A DNA stretch of 47,482 bases, taken from a virus. The notes below the pieces were generated by a model. It saw only the letters and a list, made by a program, of their open reading frames with translations. It ran no database searches and was not told where the DNA came from. How positions within the stretch are numbered: the first letter of the stretch is position 1; every line of letters begins with the position of its first letter. The translations under genes and the position numbers were made by a program. This document shows positions 3,309-21,696 of this stretch, piece after piece. Location: IMG/VR virus record IMGVR_UViG_3300020162_000708, positions 1-47,482 of that record; one strand, given 5' to 3'.

Positions 3309-3380
3309 GCCTCAGTAGCACAATGGTAGTGCATCTCACTTGTAATGAGAAGGTTGCAGGTTCAAATCCTGTCTGGGGCT
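3309..3380 (+). tRNA. tRNA-Thr (anticodon UGU)
   Basis: A complete cloverleaf of 72 nt. Acceptor GCCTCAG (3309-3315) pairs with CTGGGGC (3373-3379); D stem GCAC/GTGC; anticodon stem TCTCA/TGAGA with loop CTTGTAA, anticodon TGT (3341-3343); T stem GCAGG/CCTGT with loop TTCAAAT; discriminator T3380; no encoded CCA. It reads ACA and, by wobble, ACG. Confidence 0.95.
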
Positions 3381-4355: not shown

Positions 4356-4631
4356 ATGATAAATCAAATGACTGACTTCCCCACAATTCAATCTAAAGAT
4401 GGCACAATGATTGTGTCATTTTATCCTGTTAAAACTCCATTTGGTGATGTATCAAAAGAGTGGTGTTTGCAGGTATTAGAATGGGATGGCATTGAAACAA
4501 TGTCTAAAAAGTATCTCAACAGGGTAGAAAAAACACTTGCAATTCGCGATAGAATTGCACATGGTTATGTGTTTGTGAAAGATAACACTGAACTTCCGCA
4601 ACTTGGCAATCCTTTCTATGGTGCAGTTTGA
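4356..4631 (+). CDS. Small protein of unknown function (91 aa)
   Basis: A 91-residue soluble protein with a beta-rich N-terminal half (GTMIVSFYPVKTPFGD, EWCLQVLEWDGIE) followed by a basic helix (KKYLNRVEKTLAIRDRIAHG). ATG at 4356 lies 6 nt behind TATCAT. The last base of the stop is also the first base of the next start (TGATG). Family not recognised. Confidence 0.7.
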   Translation: MINQMTDFPTIQSKDGTMIVSFYPVKTPFGDVSKEWCLQVLEWDGIETMSKKYLNRVEKTLAIRDRIAHGYVFVKDNTELPQLGNPFYGAV

Positions 4632-4885: not shown

Positions 4886-5359
4886 ATGGAAAAAAACAAA
4901 ACATTCTCAAAACTCATTTACAACATCTCAAACCCCAAATGTGTAGTGTTTGATCTAGATGCCACATTGTGCCATCATGGTGATCAATCAGGGTTTGAAG
5001 AATGTGATCAATTCCCTGCTATTGATGCTGTTGTAGATGTTGCAAAGCACTGCAAATCTATGGGTTTTGATCTAGTCATTGCTACTGCCAGACCTGATAC
5101 ATTTGCAGATGGCACAGCATACTGGTTGCAGGAACATTTGCCTGAGTTTGATGCACTCTACATGAAAAATGCAGATGATGATGCAACTGGTTCCACTGCT
5201 AAAGGTCATCAACTGATGGACATTCTGCGTTTTTGGGATGATATTCAGTTCTGGGTTGATGATAGTCCATTCAATGCAAAAGTCATTGAGGATCATGGTG
5301 TGCACTGCATTCGTCCTTCTCACAATGATGCTTTCTGGGCAGACTATGGGGATCAGTGA
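4886..5359 (+). CDS. HAD-superfamily phosphatase
   Basis: A 157-residue cytoplasmic hydrolase of the haloacid dehalogenase fold. Motif I is VFDLDATL, with Asp23 as the nucleophile and Asp25 as the acid/base; motif II is IATARP (Thr67); a Lys for motif III is offered by TAKGH (Lys106); motif IV is WVDDSPFN (Asp125, Asp126). The set resembles the 3'-phosphatase domain of phage Pnkp-type enzymes and phage nucleotide phosphatases, but no kinase domain is attached. The substrate cannot be told from sequence. ATG at 4886 is placed by cassette copy 7. Confidence 0.85.
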   Translation: MEKNKTFSKLIYNISNPKCVVFDLDATLCHHGDQSGFEECDQFPAIDAVVDVAKHCKSMGFDLVIATARPDTFADGTAYWLQEHLPEFDALYMKNADDDATGSTAKGHQLMDILRFWDDIQFWVDDSPFNAKVIEDHGVHCIRPSHNDAFWADYGDQ

Positions 5360-6983: not shown

Positions 6984-7160
6984 ATGAACAATCTTGTAGA
7001 TAAGTGCCTGAATCTTGCTGATCAAATGGCACAAGAAATCAATGGTGATCTGTTTTATGTTCCTGATGAAGATCTCCAACAATGCCTAAACTTTCTTAGT
7101 GAAGATAACCTCTTTGAGGTTGCATCTGAAATTGCACAATTAGCACACTTCTATAACTAA
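6984..7160 (+). CDS. Small acidic helical protein (58 aa)
   Basis: A 58-residue acidic protein of two helices separated by FYVPDEDL. ATG at 6984 starts just behind the preceding stop; a longer frame from 6957 lies in the previous gene. No membrane segment and no Shine-Dalgarno. Family not recognised. Confidence 0.6.
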   Translation: MNNLVDKCLNLADQMAQEINGDLFYVPDEDLQQCLNFLSEDNLFEVASEIAQLAHFYN

Positions 7161-7621: not shown

Positions 7622-7852
7622 ATGAAAGAGAATAAAGTGTTTGAACTTGAGTTATGTCAAGAGGATGCTATTCGTATCCTGAAAGGTGTATGGGAATTGC
7701 GGATACATGAGTATAGCAAGGCAAGACAAGTAGATCCCAATGGTGATAAGGAAAGTGCCTGGATTGAGTATGAATATGTCAGTGCATTATGGGGTGAGTT
7801 AGATGAGAAGTTTTCCACAGTTTATGATAGTTTTCCACAGATATTGTGTTGA
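7622..7852 (+). CDS. Small acidic protein; 3' end overlaps two DnaA-type boxes (76 aa)
   Basis: A 76-residue acidic helical protein (ELELCQEDAIRILKGVWELRIHEY). The ATG is 2 nt behind the previous stop. Its last codons carry two TTTTCCACA boxes (7811-7819, 7831-7839), so the C-terminal FSTVYDSFPQILC is partly dictated by these sites. It is the last gene before the long non-coding stretch. Family not recognised. Confidence 0.65.
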   Translation: MKENKVFELELCQEDAIRILKGVWELRIHEYSKARQVDPNGDKESAWIEYEYVSALWGELDEKFSTVYDSFPQILC

Positions 7853-8193
7853 ATTGTTAATAAATTAAATGTGTTAATAAATGTAGTGGTGTGATGTATA
7901 GTGTTTGTGTTAATTAGTGTATGTACCTGTAAATGGTGTATTTTCTAGTGATCTTGGCCCCCATTCTATCACAAACTCTCTGAAAAGTCAAGCACCCCCA
8001 GTCACTCTGAGAACTGGCACAATGCCCCTTGACAGTATAGTTTTCCACAGGTCTTAAGTGAGAATCAGTGAGAACACAGTGAGGGACTAGGATTATAGTG
8101 AAACACAGTGAATATGCCTGTGGAAAACTATAGTCAAACCTGTGGAAAACCCTGTGGAAAACTATAAGAATTGTGGAAAAATAGTTTTCCACA
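7811..8193 (+). other. Cluster of eight cyanobacterial-type DnaA boxes: candidate replication origin
   Basis: TTTTCCACA occurs perfectly at 7811, 7831, 8041 and 8185 on + and, as TGTGGAAAA, at 8119, 8141, 8153 and 8172 on -. A 9-mer is expected less than once in the whole window. TTTTCCACA is the DnaA-box form reported for cyanobacteria such as Synechococcus and Prochlorococcus. Several boxes are embedded in a longer unit, ATAGTTTTCCACAGG. The stretch is non-coding from 7853 and includes AT-rich direct repeats, as an origin would. A binding site for a phage protein, or a sink for host DnaA, is also possible. Confidence 0.65.
7855..7882 (+). repeat. AT-rich direct repeat (possible unwinding element)
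   Basis: TGTTAATAAAT occurs at 7855-7865 and 7872-7882, a 17-bp period, beside the DnaA-type boxes. Such AT-rich repeats are usual next to origin boxes. AATAAAT also resembles part of a late-promoter box, so a regulatory meaning is an alternative. Confidence 0.45.
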
Positions 8194-8240: not shown

Positions 8241-8269
8241 TTGACAAAGTGCAGTGTTTATGGTATAGT
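8241..8269 (+). promoter_or_regulatory. Strong sigma70-type promoter
   Basis: Perfect -35 TTGACA (8241-8246), a 17-nt spacer and -10 TATAGT (8264-8269). It is the best match to the vegetative consensus in the window. It points into the operon beginning at 8376 and leaves a leader of about 100 nt, unlike the leaderless cassettes to the left. Confidence 0.8.
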
Positions 8270-8302: not shown

Positions 8303-8341
8303 GGTTGTGGGGTAATGCGAAAAAACAAGACTCCCCTAACC
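8303..8341 (+). promoter_or_regulatory. GC-rich hairpin in the leader of the 8376 operon
   Basis: GGTT-GT-GGGG (8303-8312) can pair with CCCC-T-AACC (8333-8341), with an A-rich loop. It is preceded by a run of six G, so it stands out in AT-rich DNA. It lies between the promoter at 8241 and the first gene, where it could act on translation, attenuation or as a small RNA. Confidence 0.45.
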
Positions 8342-8375
8342 TACAGAGGTGACAATTTGAGAGAACGATATAAAG

Positions 8376-8552
8376 ATGATTAAAAAAATTCTGAGGTCAA
8401 AAAAATCCCCCATAAGGTTAATCTATGAGGGTCTGTATGGAACTACAATTGGTCCCAAGGATGAAGTGAGATATATTGTGAGTTGCCTCAGAGAAACATT
8501 AAATATAGTTGGGTCCCATTATAGAAAAAAAATTCTCCCAGGAAAAAAATGA
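8376..8552 (+). CDS. Small basic protein of unknown function (58 aa)
   Basis: A 58-residue, very basic protein (IKKILRSKKSPIRLIYEG at the start, HYRKKILPGKK at the end), with no membrane segment. It is the first gene behind the strong promoter at 8241. Its stop overlaps the next start (ATGA, 8549-8552). Nucleic-acid binding is conceivable from charge; family not recognised. Confidence 0.55.
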   Translation: MIKKILRSKKSPIRLIYEGLYGTTIGPKDEVRYIVSCLRETLNIVGSHYRKKILPGKK

Positions 8553-16300: not shown

Positions 16301-19300
16301 CGCCAAATCAAATTTATTATATTTTAAAATTAGATAATGACAGATTCCAACTAACTACTGATCCAGAAGGAAAAAATATATTAAACATTATAAGTACAGA
16401 TTTTGCTACAACTTATTTTGTACAATATCCTCCAATTACTGCTAATGTTTTTGGAAAAATTAAAAAAACTGCATCTGTAGCTATTGGATATGGTGCTACA
16501 ATAATTCCTACAGTTGAAGGATCTGTTACTTCTGTTAGAGTTCAAAGAGGTCTTGCTAAACCAGCTAAACAGTTCTTAGGGTCAAGTAGTGTACTAAACT
16601 ACCATAAACGTCCTACAGTTACTGTTTTAGAAGGAAAGGATGCATCTTTTTCTGCAGTAGTAGAAGATGGAAAACTTATTGATATTATAGTTAAAAATGC
16701 TGGAGAAAACTATTTTAATAATTTTGAACTTAAAGTTACTGGAAATGGATATGGAGCAATTTTACAACCAGTATTAAGTAATGGTGAAATCTATAATGGA
16801 CAAGTAAGTTATGGGCAAATTATAGAAGTTATCATAGCAAATCCTGGAGTTGGATATGCTACCACAAATACTACAATTGAAGTAATTTCTAAGGGAGAGA
16901 ACTTAAAGGTATCAGCTAATTTAACTTCCTGGACAATAAATGAAACTGTTAAATTAGGAATTTCAAATTTAAATAATGGAACTATTTTTGGCAAAAAATA
17001 TTCTTTATTTGGAAATATCTTTGGAACTTTCTTTTTAGATCAAAATCTTAGATCATCTTTTAACATACCAAATACTCCCACAAAACACTCTCCAATAGTT
17101 GGGTGGGCTTATGATGGATGTCCAATTTATGGTCCATATGCATTTGCTAATCCAGATGGAACTGGTAGTGTAGTTAGAATGAAGAGTGGATACTCTAGAT
17201 CAAAGATTAGTCCACCTGCTAATTTGGATTGTATAGAAGATTATATTTTTACAAATTCTGGAACCTTAGATAGAAACAATGGAAGATTTTGCATTACTCC
17301 AGAATATCCAGAGGGCATCTATGCGTATTTTTGCACATTAAATAGCAACAATGTGCCAGAATTTCCATACATTATAGGTAATAATTATGAGTATACCCCA
17401 CAACAAGAAAATTTTGATTTAAAATTTAATCAAAATTTAAATTTTAATAAATTAAACATTGTAAAATATACCAAACCATACAGAATAGAAGATAAGGATA
17501 ATTATTATGAGTATTTTAAATTTGAATCAAATTCTCTAGGCAGTGATGCAATAATCACATCATCATCTTCTGGAAAAGTAGATTCTATAGAGATTATTGA
17601 TTCTGGTCTTAATTATGAAATTGGAGACAAAATATTATTTGATATTGACAATCTTGGTGGAGTAGGAGCTTATGGAGAAGTTGTAGAAGTTGAAGGTGTT
17701 GGTATAACTACTATACAATACTCCACAAATACTTTTCCAGATGTTAAACTATTAAGTATAAACACTGGAATCTTAGGTATAACTACAATACCCCACAATT
17801 TCTCTGATCAAAGTTTTATTACAATTACTGGAATTTCAACAACAGATTATTCTGAAATTGAGGGTACTAGGAAAATCAGAATTAATGTAGAGTATCCAAT
17901 TACTTCTATTGCAAGTACACTTTCAGATTCAACTATTACTGGAATTATTACTGGATTGTCAGTTAAAGAACCTTTATTCTCATATAATATAGATGATCAA
18001 TTTAAAATTGGAAGTGAAACTTTTAAAGTAATAGGTTTAGATCTTACCAATAACATATTAAATGTTTTAAGAGAATCATCATCACCTGGATATGGGATTG
18101 GATCAACTGTTATACCTTTACAAAATAGATTTACATTTGAATATAAGGGATTAGATAAACCATTAACTCAATTAGATGAAACATATTACTTTAATCCAGT
18201 TCAGTCAGTATCTATTGGATTAGGGACTTCTGTGGGATTTGGAAATACTTTAGCAATATATCCTCTAGGTGCAGGAACATCTATAACAAAATACGTTCAA
18301 TATGGTGGATTATATTTACCAAATAATAAGTTTAATACTGGAGATAGGGTAGTATATGAATCAAATGCATCAAGTATAGTAACTAATTTAGGAAATCTTG
18401 CGTCTATATCAAATCTTTTTGTGATCAAATTATCCTCAGATATAGTTGGATTGGTTAACGAAAAGAATAAAATTAATGATGCAACATCTATAATACAGTA
18501 CACATCAGTTGGAACTGGAATATTACATAAATTAAAAACCGTAAGGAATGTTATTACTTGCACAACAATTCAAAATAAAGTAAATGTATCTACTGGAGTA
18601 ACTCATGGGTTATCAGTTAATGATAATATAAAAGTTAGTGTTACTTCTGGTATAGTTACCAACTATACAGTAGGATATTCAACTATAACAAAAAGAGTAT
18701 TAGTTAATTCACAAGGAAGTGTTCCAGTTAATGTATATGCTAATGATACTGTAGTTTTTAATATTTCATCATTAAGTTTAAGTGGAAAAGAATTTGGAAT
18801 TTATACTAATGATTCATTTAATAATGAATATTTTGGAAATGAAGACAATGGGTTAGAAGTCATTAAAACTGCTTCAGAACTTAGATTAACCATTAGTGAA
18901 TTTACTCCAAGAACTCTTTATTATAATTTAAAAAATATTACATCTACTGATGAAATTTATCCAGATATATCTTTGATAGATTATAATAAAATAATAGTAA
19001 ATAATAGCTTATTCAATACAGATGCTTCTATAGGTACTACTACTGATTATACATTTCAATTTGATGTTGCAATTCAACCAGAAAGGCAAAAATATACAAA
19101 TACACTATCAACATTAAAGTATAATGTAAAATCACCAAATATAAAAGGACCAATAGGAAAAGCAAAAGTACTGTTTAATGGATCTAATTATAAAAAACTC
19201 CCATTAATCAAAGAAATAATAACAGAGCAAGGGACTGGTGCTAATTTATTTGCACTTAGTAATACTATAGGAAAACTTAAGAATGCTAAAGTTACAAACA

Positions 19301-21696
19301 CACAATCTATTTTTCCAACAGATACTACATTAAGACCAGTTTCAAATGTATTTTCAACTATAAAATTAACAAATAACTATGAAGTCCTTGATTGTTTGGT
19401 AGAATCTTCTGGATCAAAATATTTAACTTCTCCAACTTTAAAATTATACAATAGAACAGAAGATTTAATTAAAGAAGAATTTACTGCAGTTGCTGTATTG
19501 AAAAATACTTCAATAAATGAAATTAAAATATTAAACCCAGGATCCAATTTAAAGTCTACTGATGATGAAATTTTAGTATTAGATAATAGTAATGGTATTA
19601 GAATATTATCAGCTTCTGTTGCTGGAATAGACCCATACCAAGTAACATTAACATTAGAAACTCCTTTAGTTGGATTTACTACTGAAGCTTCGTTGCCCAT
19701 ACAGGTTGGTGATGAAATTTTAGTTGAAAATATAATAAGTACTTCTGGTGTAGGATTTAATAGCAAAGATTTTAAATATGTTCCATTTAAAGTAATATTT
19801 GTAGATCAAGCATTTAATTCTCAAGATGCTGCTTTGATTAGATATGAAGTAACTCAATTCCCTGGAATCTTTAATGAGGATCTTACCTTTAATGCATCAG
19901 TCATAAAATATTCAGATGTTCCCAAAATTACTCCTATTTTAGGTGAAAGTCAATTTTATAACTCTGAATTTTTAACTGATGATGTAGAAATTATTGACAA
20001 TCCAGATAATGATAAAATTACTAGGGTATTGAAACTTCATAAGTCTACTGGACTATCTATTGGAGATTCTGTTTCTGGAGCATCATCAAAATCAAAAGGA
20101 ACTATATCAGATATAGTAGATTTTCCTGCATTATTTACAATAGATTCTAGTGTTCCAGAGACAATTGGATGGAAAGATTTTAGAGGCAATTTATCCAGCA
20201 TTCTGCAAAAATTACCAGATAATGATTACTATCAAAAGTTTTCATATTCACTTAAGAGCAAGATTCCATATACTGATTGGAATTCTATAGTTTCTGATAT
20301 ATCTCATGTTACAGGATACAAAAAATTTGCAGACTTAAGTGTTGAATCCAATCAAATAGTAGGAATTGGAAGTACTAATAATGATTTAAAAGTTAGATCT
20401 GATTTTACATCTTCTGTTAATGTTGTATTAACATCATATTCTCAAGTAAATACTATCTCAAACTTTGATTTAGTTGTTGAAGAAGATATTGACGAAAGTG
20501 AGGGTGCATATTCTGAATTCATTAAATTTAGAACTAGAAAATTATCAGATTATATTTTATCTAGTGAAAATAGAGTTCTTTCTATTGATGACATTTCTAC
20601 ACTATTTGATACTGATAATGCTCCATTTGTTGCAGTCACTCTAGATGAAGTAGATACTACTGAAAACATTGTATTAAAGTATTTCTTCTTTATTGGAGCC
20701 ACTTCTTCATTCTTTGGAGAATTTGTAAGACCTGAGGTATTAGATTTATTTGTAACCAGAAATAATGACACTATAAATCTATCATCTTATGGATATTATT
20801 ATGATTTCTTCACTTCAAGTGGAGCAGCTGCTCTTCCACTAGGAAATATCCAAGGAGCACTCAGTCCTACCAATGGAGATGAAATAATTATTAACTTTAT
20901 CCCAAGAAATATATTTAATAGTTATGCTGTTAGAGCAGTTAAAGAAACTGCTAATGTTTCTGTTGGTATTGCCACAACTTCTTTTGGATATATTAGAAAT
21001 GTAGAATCTACTGGAATATATACATCTACTCCATCACCAGTTACTAGTACTTTCTATAGTATTCCTTTATCAGATTGTGTTGCTGGGTCTGTATTTTTAG
21101 GAATATCTTCGACTCCAAAAAGAGTTGAAAATGCATTTGAGATAAGTTTTGTCAAAAATCAAAACAACATCATAGATTATAATATTTTTGCAGAACAAAA
21201 ATATAAGGAACTTGGAGTATTTGGTATAACCACTAGTGCTGGAAATATACAATTTACATTTACACCTCCAACTGGAATTGGAGTGACTTTATTTACTAAT
21301 TTCAACTTTATAACCAATACTTATGATGTTCCAAATGAAAAAATTAAAGAATTGAGTAGAGTTAGAAGTAACCAAGTAATATATACTGGATCAAGTGCTG
21401 TATCAATCTCTACAGTAAGTTCTGCATATGCAGCAACAAAATATATAATCGAAGCTACTAAAACTGTAGGATTAAGTACTCAAAAATCTTTAGTTCAAAT
21501 AAATTCTCTTCACTTCCAAGATTATGCTAATAATACAGTTTATGGAATAATTGGAGACTTCCCACAAGATGAGTTAGATTTTGAAACCATATTAAATCCT
21601 TCAACTAGTGAGTATGTATTAACATTTAATCCTACTGTTTCTGCTACTTATAGATTTAGATATCTTGAAAAGAGCGTTCTAAATCCAAACACTTAA
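13342..21696 (+). CDS. Giant baseplate/tail structural protein with a YHYH domain (2784 aa)
   Basis: The largest gene of the window, at the place where T4 has gp7 (1032 aa). The N-terminal 250 residues (LPEFILEENPNFSEFLNQYY, and YQSKGTDEAFQILFKVLYDE) are typical of cyanophage wedge proteins. Residues about 1248-1350 form a YHYH-type domain (SPIVGWAYDGCPIYGPY, NNGRFCITPEYPEG, YAYF, PYIIG). Around it lie repeated beta modules ending in GxxY, such as VNPGYDYEDTPIVTITGG and ANPGVGYATT. Much of the rest is Ser/Thr/Gly-rich beta structure. Likely function: wedge scaffold and fibre attachment; the call as gp7 equivalent is inference. Confidence 0.75.
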   Translation: MNNEKKVIKISDVVKNQLPEFILEENPNFSEFLNQYYVSQEYTGGVVDLSENLTDYKNVESFDKVNLIKSTTLTSDASFIDSEIYVESTNGWPNSYGLFKINNEIITYTGITTNSFLGCARGFSGIESLSSEDNPEVLVFSKTEADFHSEGDSVINLSNLFLVEFFNKIKYQFTPGFEEVELDSKINPQNFISKAKSFYQSKGTDEAFQILFKVLYDENVKIIKPREFCFTPSDDKWVVTETFVCDLISGDPLKLKGQTLYQDNDPYNSNVLEATGSIYEVESFKLDNNVLYKIKIFAGYSNNVSPKGSITGVFVSTPKTYTVENVDIESTTIFVDSTVGFPQSGILNINGIEYTYSDKTNNQFIGLTGITSTTVIGRKSEIYGSNFVYSYEDGNTSAPVKLKVNNVLSGIRSSETLYALDNDPIRIENIGNTVDTTFTKSLYYNHPLTIPSGIATTQITDATRNYFKEGFSVVNGLALSKYNHNLKLGDTVNLFVKSTQGYDLISSGLSVNTSLSKEFSVQQISDPSVLGKKVLFRRNLRKTKATPFTKLYNNIQNKFTSNIQDCYVDDNYYYVTSNGLPDYEINPYIREFSFTVNLSTLVGSHNFYDGEAVKVISYKTSINYNNTVGIATGSTYYVTRLSPNTLGLTENRDNVGKTSVNFFEYDNEGNLSGTIDEIVIISSPLYGNNFTSSKLFKKIPKNLEFSKTKTETAAGPIGIFVNGVEIQNYKSYDKIYYGQIETVDVLNGGTNYSLINPPSFKIFNEDEQDLNTFLIPQMKGVLTGLIVVNPGYDYEDTPIVTITGGNNDELSAQVKMKSIDKQIQFNATTRDTVVNTVNNDLRFGINHGFITGEPIVYETFNTIPIGIGSIVSDGTLLNNSVYYAVNIGAGTSIKLALNKEDAIAERNLINIRTTGGGIQRFKSLNKIQVIDKVNVLGQNINFEYKKLSFGPDDINVYDNIFTGIDHQFNTRDKVVITVEGTYLDGATPNQIYYILKLDNDRFQLTTDPEGKNILNIISTDFATTYFVQYPPITANVFGKIKKTASVAIGYGATIIPTVEGSVTSVRVQRGLAKPAKQFLGSSSVLNYHKRPTVTVLEGKDASFSAVVEDGKLIDIIVKNAGENYFNNFELKVTGNGYGAILQPVLSNGEIYNGQVSYGQIIEVIIANPGVGYATTNTTIEVISKGENLKVSANLTSWTINETVKLGISNLNNGTIFGKKYSLFGNIFGTFFLDQNLRSSFNIPNTPTKHSPIVGWAYDGCPIYGPYAFANPDGTGSVVRMKSGYSRSKISPPANLDCIEDYIFTNSGTLDRNNGRFCITPEYPEGIYAYFCTLNSNNVPEFPYIIGNNYEYTPQQENFDLKFNQNLNFNKLNIVKYTKPYRIEDKDNYYEYFKFESNSLGSDAIITSSSSGKVDSIEIIDSGLNYEIGDKILFDIDNLGGVGAYGEVVEVEGVGITTIQYSTNTFPDVKLLSINTGILGITTIPHNFSDQSFITITGISTTDYSEIEGTRKIRINVEYPITSIASTLSDSTITGIITGLSVKEPLFSYNIDDQFKIGSETFKVIGLDLTNNILNVLRESSSPGYGIGSTVIPLQNRFTFEYKGLDKPLTQLDETYYFNPVQSVSIGLGTSVGFGNTLAIYPLGAGTSITKYVQYGGLYLPNNKFNTGDRVVYESNASSIVTNLGNLASISNLFVIKLSSDIVGLVNEKNKINDATSIIQYTSVGTGILHKLKTVRNVITCTTIQNKVNVSTGVTHGLSVNDNIKVSVTSGIVTNYTVGYSTITKRVLVNSQGSVPVNVYANDTVVFNISSLSLSGKEFGIYTNDSFNNEYFGNEDNGLEVIKTASELRLTISEFTPRTLYYNLKNITSTDEIYPDISLIDYNKIIVNNSLFNTDASIGTTTDYTFQFDVAIQPERQKYTNTLSTLKYNVKSPNIKGPIGKAKVLFNGSNYKKLPLIKEIITEQGTGANLFALSNTIGKLKNAKVTNTQSIFPTDTTLRPVSNVFSTIKLTNNYEVLDCLVESSGSKYLTSPTLKLYNRTEDLIKEEFTAVAVLKNTSINEIKILNPGSNLKSTDDEILVLDNSNGIRILSASVAGIDPYQVTLTLETPLVGFTTEASLPIQVGDEILVENIISTSGVGFNSKDFKYVPFKVIFVDQAFNSQDAALIRYEVTQFPGIFNEDLTFNASVIKYSDVPKITPILGESQFYNSEFLTDDVEIIDNPDNDKITRVLKLHKSTGLSIGDSVSGASSKSKGTISDIVDFPALFTIDSSVPETIGWKDFRGNLSSILQKLPDNDYYQKFSYSLKSKIPYTDWNSIVSDISHVTGYKKFADLSVESNQIVGIGSTNNDLKVRSDFTSSVNVVLTSYSQVNTISNFDLVVEEDIDESEGAYSEFIKFRTRKLSDYILSSENRVLSIDDISTLFDTDNAPFVAVTLDEVDTTENIVLKYFFFIGATSSFFGEFVRPEVLDLFVTRNNDTINLSSYGYYYDFFTSSGAAALPLGNIQGALSPTNGDEIIINFIPRNIFNSYAVRAVKETANVSVGIATTSFGYIRNVESTGIYTSTPSPVTSTFYSIPLSDCVAGSVFLGISSTPKRVENAFEISFVKNQNNIIDYNIFAEQKYKELGVFGITTSAGNIQFTFTPPTGIGVTLFTNFNFITNTYDVPNEKIKELSRVRSNQVIYTGSSAVSISTVSSAYAATKYIIEATKTVGLSTQKSLVQINSLHFQDYANNTVYGIIGDFPQDELDFETILNPSTSEYVLTFNPTVSATYRFRYLEKSVLNPNT

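Follow-up and report, generated by a model that had tools for sequence, protein, structure and literature searches.

A conserved cluster of cyanobacterial-type DnaA boxes as a candidate DnaA-recruiting replication origin in T4-like cyanophages

In the DNA of a T4-like cyanophage, eight perfect copies of the cyanobacterial DnaA box, i.e., TTTTCCACA, are packed within 383 bp, four on each strand, next to an easily unwound segment and two divergent predicted promoters, and this arrangement recurs upstream of the baseplate genes in related phages. On the whole, we lean, if only slightly, towards viewing the locus as an early origin of replication, conserved among T4-like cyanophages, to which the host DnaA is recruited as initiator. 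While the box array and its anatomy are read directly from the DNA, it is from these features that we infer DnaA binding, priming and origin activity. The best reading of the design is a combination of boxes for host DnaA with the T4-like layout of a promoter directed into an unwinding element, where a host promoter replaces the MotA one. To our knowledge, no replication origin of T4-like cyanophages has been mapped, and we know of no case where T4 borrows the replication-starting protein of its host; a text search of openly available papers returned no description of DnaA boxes or of a mapped origin in T4-like cyanophages. The locus suggests that a lytic T4-like phage may depend on the host initiator, by which phage replication would be tied to the host cell cycle; in light-driven cells, such a tie would bear on the limits that light and growth state set to infection. 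As such, it offers a precise and conserved target in the cultured isolates S-PM2, Syn1, and Syn9.

Architecture of the locus

The DNA analysed, hereafter the window, is a virus record of 47,482 bases, which holds only this 47-kb fragment of the genome. It belongs to a T4-like phage, as the initial annotation proposed: the baseplate, neck, sheath-stabiliser, and terminase proteins together with the neighbour genes are of the T4-like cyanophage type, and the relatives are cyanophages. The gp6 of the closest isolates is only about 50% identical to that of the window, which thus represents a lineage without close cultured member. The early region further carries two phage tRNA genes, namely Arg(TCT) at 936-1010 and Thr(TGT) at 3309-3380.

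All eight boxes listed in the initial annotation were confirmed in start and strand, and no other exact match occurs in the 47,482 bases. They are distributed into an outer pair (7811-7819 and 7831-7839, both on the + strand), a middle box (8041-8049, + strand), and an inner array (8119-8193), the latter with boxes starting at 8119, 8141, 8153, and 8172 on the - strand and at 8185 on the + strand. The boxes have in common a longer motif, about AGTTTTCCACAGGT, extending beyond the 9-mer, and exact inverted copies of 14-16 bp are present; an RNA family search of the locus gave only a spurious sub-threshold match, on the inverted boxes. The array had been placed in the longest gene-free stretch, which is not wholly gene-free, as the two outer boxes lie in the 3' end of an ORF of 76 aa (7622-7852) with no PHROG match. 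The figure of less than one box expected in the window was likewise too low, dinucleotide shuffles yielding a mean of 1.14 matches to TTTTCCACA, with a maximum of 5 and never 8. The Poisson probability of eight boxes in 383 bp, after scanning the whole window, is about 6e-17. Elsewhere in the window, one-mismatch matches to TTTTCCACA are at background level, so base composition does not account for the cluster.

The boxes flank a candidate DNA unwinding element (7842-7921), which is the least stable 80-bp segment of the region from 5 to 11 kb and encloses the AT-rich direct repeats TGTGTTAATAAATGTA (7870-7885) and TGTGTTAATTAGTGTA (7906-7921), correctly noticed beside the boxes in the earlier reading. 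In all 11 relatives tested, the segment of lowest stability next to the leftmost box ranks among the least stable 1.1% of its surroundings. An adjacent and easily unwound AT-rich element, which is one of the features of an oriC-type origin, is found as such in the window and in 11/11 relatives.

In an alignment of 17 arrays, the most conserved block of the gap is GTGATCTTGGCCCMCATTNTATCACAAA (7948-7975), related forms of which occur in marine isolates. A protein-coding reason for this conservation was considered and rejected, since no reading frame is open across the block in all relatives. The alignment combined with a consensus scan points to two predicted promoters of the sigma70 type, divergent, conserved, and absent from the initial annotation, i.e., a leftward one on the - strand (7963-7991; TTGACT-17-TAGAAT, with TG before the -10) and a rightward one on the + strand (8241-8269; TTGACA-17-TATAGT, also with TG before the -10), the latter matching 11 of 12 consensus positions and being missing or broken in one relative (L152). 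The leftward promoter points into the unwinding element; its transcript, expected to start near 7955, would cross 7842-7921, and no conserved ORF lies downstream of it. The same leftward element is present in S-SM2 and S-SCSM1, and near-consensus rightward promoters are found in the same order in Syn9, Syn19, S-SSM5, S-SM2, and S-SCSM1. Because P-SSM2 keeps the promoter pair with no exact boxes and one relative (L201) keeps the leftward promoter, the promoters seem, on comparison of these sequences, to predate the boxes and to be the more essential of the two. A third promoter, based on a TTGACA just left of 8041, was rejected, as a good -10 at the right distance is lacking and several relatives do not have this TTGACA. 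Between the middle box and the inner array lies a partly conserved, iteron-like stretch rich in CAGTGAGAA/ACAGTGA (8056-8118). On the other side, the first ORF after the rightward promoter encodes 22 aa (MRKNKTPLTYRGDNLRERYKDD; 8315-8383, + strand) with no known relatives and overlaps an ORF of 58 aa (8376-8552, + strand) with no PHROG match.

Conservation in relatives and cultured cyanophages

A scan of viral contigs for three close boxes returned at least 120 stretches, and the extended motif recurs in many of them. For a cleaner test of conservation, relatives were collected via the neighbouring gp6 gene and counted when their gp6 was identical to about 66% or more and 3.9 kb or more lay upstream of it (n = 26). 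At least four boxes are present upstream of gp25/gp6 in 22 of them, usually 3-4 kb from gp6 (at -8.3 kb in L140), and boxes are nearly absent elsewhere in the gp6 loci; L126, L139, L143, and L201 are the four relatives outside this set. The geometry is also kept, i.e., an outer pair, a middle box, 78-79 bp, and then an inner same-strand array, where the outer group usually consists of a + box followed by a - box 23 bp apart. Same-strand boxes mostly follow each other by steps of 11, 21, 22, or 32 bp, which are whole helical turns and thus bring them onto one face of the DNA; the phasing amounts to R of about 0.9, the significance of which is only indicative as the arrays are related and not independent. 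A helically phased cluster of consensus DnaA boxes, another feature of oriC-type origins, is therefore found at the locus.

The place of the inner array is taken in L201, at 2270-2900, by a GIY-YIG-like ORF (assigned by eye and not by profile search), and the outer boxes have decayed to TTTTCAACA and TTTTCCCCA, with the leftward promoter block intact; this is a natural loss of the box array. In L189, a phased array mostly of the variant TATTCCACA is located about 4.4 kb upstream of gp6 (at 7008), which suggests that the box sequence may have drifted in another lineage. The contig of a near-identical relative, L124 (IMGVR_UViG_3300032292_000618, 142,782 bases), starts inside the array, a few bases from a box, possibly as the result of an assembly break at the repeats.

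The recurrence of the cluster between the early region and gp25 of related cyanophages, raised in the initial annotation, also holds for cultured isolates. As a rule, whole-genome scans of cultured cyanophages revealed one cluster per genome, smaller than in the window and located in the homologous gap, which lies upstream of gp25 and gp6 and carries small early genes, e.g., at 19,231-19,264 in S-PM2 and at 58,713-58,745 in Syn1; clusters were also found in S-CAM1, S-CAM3, S-RIM44, Sf-FR1, S-MbCM6, and P-TIM68, the cluster of DSL-LC03 has seven boxes, and marine isolates have only 2-3 boxes each. Most of these isolates were picked for matching the array and, as such, provide no measure of frequency. 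In a second set of eleven cyanophages picked by name alone, an exact box pair is present in four (Syn9, with the site at 52.6 kb, S-SM2, Syn19, and S-SSM5) and S-SKS1 exhibits one TTTTCCACA followed, at 21-bp steps, by two TTATCCACA, also a DnaA-box form; no clustered exact boxes were found in the genomes of P-SSM2, P-SSM4, P-HM1, P-RSM4, S-SSM7, and S-RSM4 (6/11). Two box clusters 0.6 kb apart (4374-4417 and 4990-5021) are present in S-CREM1 (L207). The S-PM2 record places a tRNA-Leu over two DnaA boxes (L213 3009-3090, corresponding to S-PM2 19252-19333), an annotation that is doubtful as ARAGORN detected no tRNA anywhere on that 6-kb stretch of S-PM2.

Host DnaA and known replication systems

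As the initial annotation had it, TTTTCCACA is a cyanobacterial DnaA-box form: it is the S. elongatus consensus, and experiments with Anabaena and Cyanothece have tested it as a DnaA box (PMC4674748). In Synechococcus WH7803, the host of S-PM2, domain IV of DnaA aligns to domain IV of E. coli DnaA (1j1v). The residues of the latter known to contact the bases, namely R399, P423, D433, H434, T435, and T436, are all kept in WH7803 DnaA, and the basic loop, LP, and DH[T/S]T are kept in the DnaA of 10/10 picocyanobacterial hosts. No TTTTCCACA cluster was found at dnaN in the picocyanobacterial hosts examined; their dnaN-linked regions have only degenerate boxes, e.g., TTTTCCACC or TTTTCCCCA, and the phage boxes are thus closer to consensus than those of the presumed host origin. 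Throughout the host genomes, exact boxes are near background, with only 14 of them in a 2.4-Mb host.

The minimal origins of T4 are composed of a promoter and a downstream AT-rich unwinding element; at oriF, the leading strand is primed by the transcript, which is present as an R-loop, and oriE contains iterons, its promoter being of the early mode (PMC3016281). Like at oriF, oriG, and oriE, the transcript of a promoter, here a predicted one, enters an AT-rich unwinding element at the cyanophage locus; the early-mode promoter and the iterons of oriE are further points of resemblance. While oriF and oriG have MotA middle promoters, the promoter of the locus is of the sigma70 type. MotA, on which the best-studied origins of T4 depend, is present in T4 and absent in 14/14 cyanophages searched, so the middle promoters of T4 are unavailable to cyanophages. 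Unlike at the locus, no DnaA boxes are described at the T4 origins, DnaA being never mentioned in the review (PMC3016281), and a scan of the T4 genome revealed no box cluster. Clustered TTTTCCACA boxes are shared with cyanobacterial oriC (S. elongatus PCC 7942, Anabaena PCC 7120, and Cyanothece 51142), but the locus belongs to a lytic T4-like phage, lies upstream of baseplate genes instead of beside dnaN, exhibits a divergent promoter pair, and has boxes more perfect than the dnaN-linked ones in those picocyanobacterial hosts that were examined. With E. coli datA and DnaA-titrating loci, it has in common a DnaA-box cluster outside oriC, to which it adds an unwinding segment and promoters, titration being here only a candidate effect. 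Iteron plasmid origins of the P1 and RK2 type similarly bring together DnaA boxes, short direct repeats, and an AT-rich segment, but no Rep gene was identified beside the locus and its AGTGAGAA repeats are irregular.

Proposed mode of action and alternative explanations

As an early origin, the locus would be bound by host DnaA at its boxes soon after DNA entry, which would help to open the AT-rich segment, and host RNA polymerase at the leftward promoter would lay an RNA kept as an R-loop. This RNA would serve as the leading-strand primer, as does the transcript of T4 oriF and perhaps that of oriE, and the phage replisome (gp41/gp59/gp61/gp43) would then take over; with later replication driven by recombination, the origin would matter only for the first rounds. 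Many cyanophages have an annotated gp59 and hence their own helicase loader, which counts against the origin reading; DnaA would not be needed to load the helicase, and a missing gp59 was rejected as a reason to need DnaA. The idea of a DnaA-dependent origin, already put forward in the initial annotation, stands as regards the origin-like anatomy, with boxes, unwinding segment, and promoter all present, and is weakened by several cyanophages without exact boxes, by the relative that lost the array, and by picocyanobacterial hosts without TTTTCCACA clusters at dnaN. The turn in cumulative GC skew anticipated at an origin did not appear at the locus in the complete genomes of S-PM2, DSL-LC03, Syn1, and S-MbCM6. 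With genes running almost one-way and replication mainly by recombination, which could erase the signal, a phage of this kind is poorly suited to the GC-skew test. As the skew does not switch, the locus is said to work like an oriC-type origin and is not filed as a proven member of that class.

That the boxes are a chance or compositional repeat devoid of function is highly improbable: intergenic DNA can accumulate spreading inverted and direct repeats, but the position and spacing kept across many lineages refute this explanation, against which the Poisson probability computed for the window also speaks. A function restricted to transcription deserves more consideration and is still unlikely. 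Host DnaA at the boxes would then regulate the two divergent promoters, coupling, for example, early phage transcription to the host DnaA-ATP level. DnaA is a known transcription regulator, two conserved promoters have boxes next to them and between them, and the promoters of P-SSM2 indicate that promoters and boxes are separable; against it, no box overlaps the promoter hexamers in the window, and both the least stable segment and a noncoding leftward transcript would be superfluous for simple regulation.

Less likely again is a datA-like titration, where boxes on the multiplying phage genome would soak up DnaA and stop host initiation. Such a sink could profit from the perfection of the phage boxes as opposed to the degenerate ones at host dnaN and from the scarcity of exact boxes in the 2.4-Mb host, but the marine isolates have too few boxes to fit it easily, the boxes form one site instead of being scattered, and the conserved unwinding segment and promoters would be left unexplained. 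By a hair the less probable of the two is a phage-coded protein, e.g., an initiator or a repressor, that would happen to read TTTTCCACAGG with DnaA uninvolved. A conserved motif longer than the 9-mer, together with the stricter block at 7948-7975 and the AGTGAGAA repeats, both with no known binder, would suit such a protein, whereas the core is identical to the DnaA box of cyanobacteria, the residues reading it are kept in host DnaA, and the variant boxes of S-SKS1, at their 21-bp steps, again correspond to a DnaA-box form.

Coming back to an early origin recruiting host DnaA, a wider proposal can be made tentatively for T4-like cyanophages as a group, namely that of a hybrid origin, where DnaA would open the DNA and a transcript of the host polymerase would prime synthesis. 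The perfect boxes may then out-compete the weak-box origin of the host, and one element would both start phage replication and stall that of the host.

Regarding the hosts themselves, their oriC was rejected as a direct template for the phage array, given that the dnaN-linked regions have degenerate boxes only. A conserved inverted TTTTCCACAG pair is present in Synechococcus WH7803 (L362 969-1021) and UW140 (L363 1009-1062), with 44-45 bp from one copy to the other; it lies away from dnaN, and the genes on either side are the same in both hosts. Judging from its sequence, this pair is a possible DnaA-binding locus of the host.
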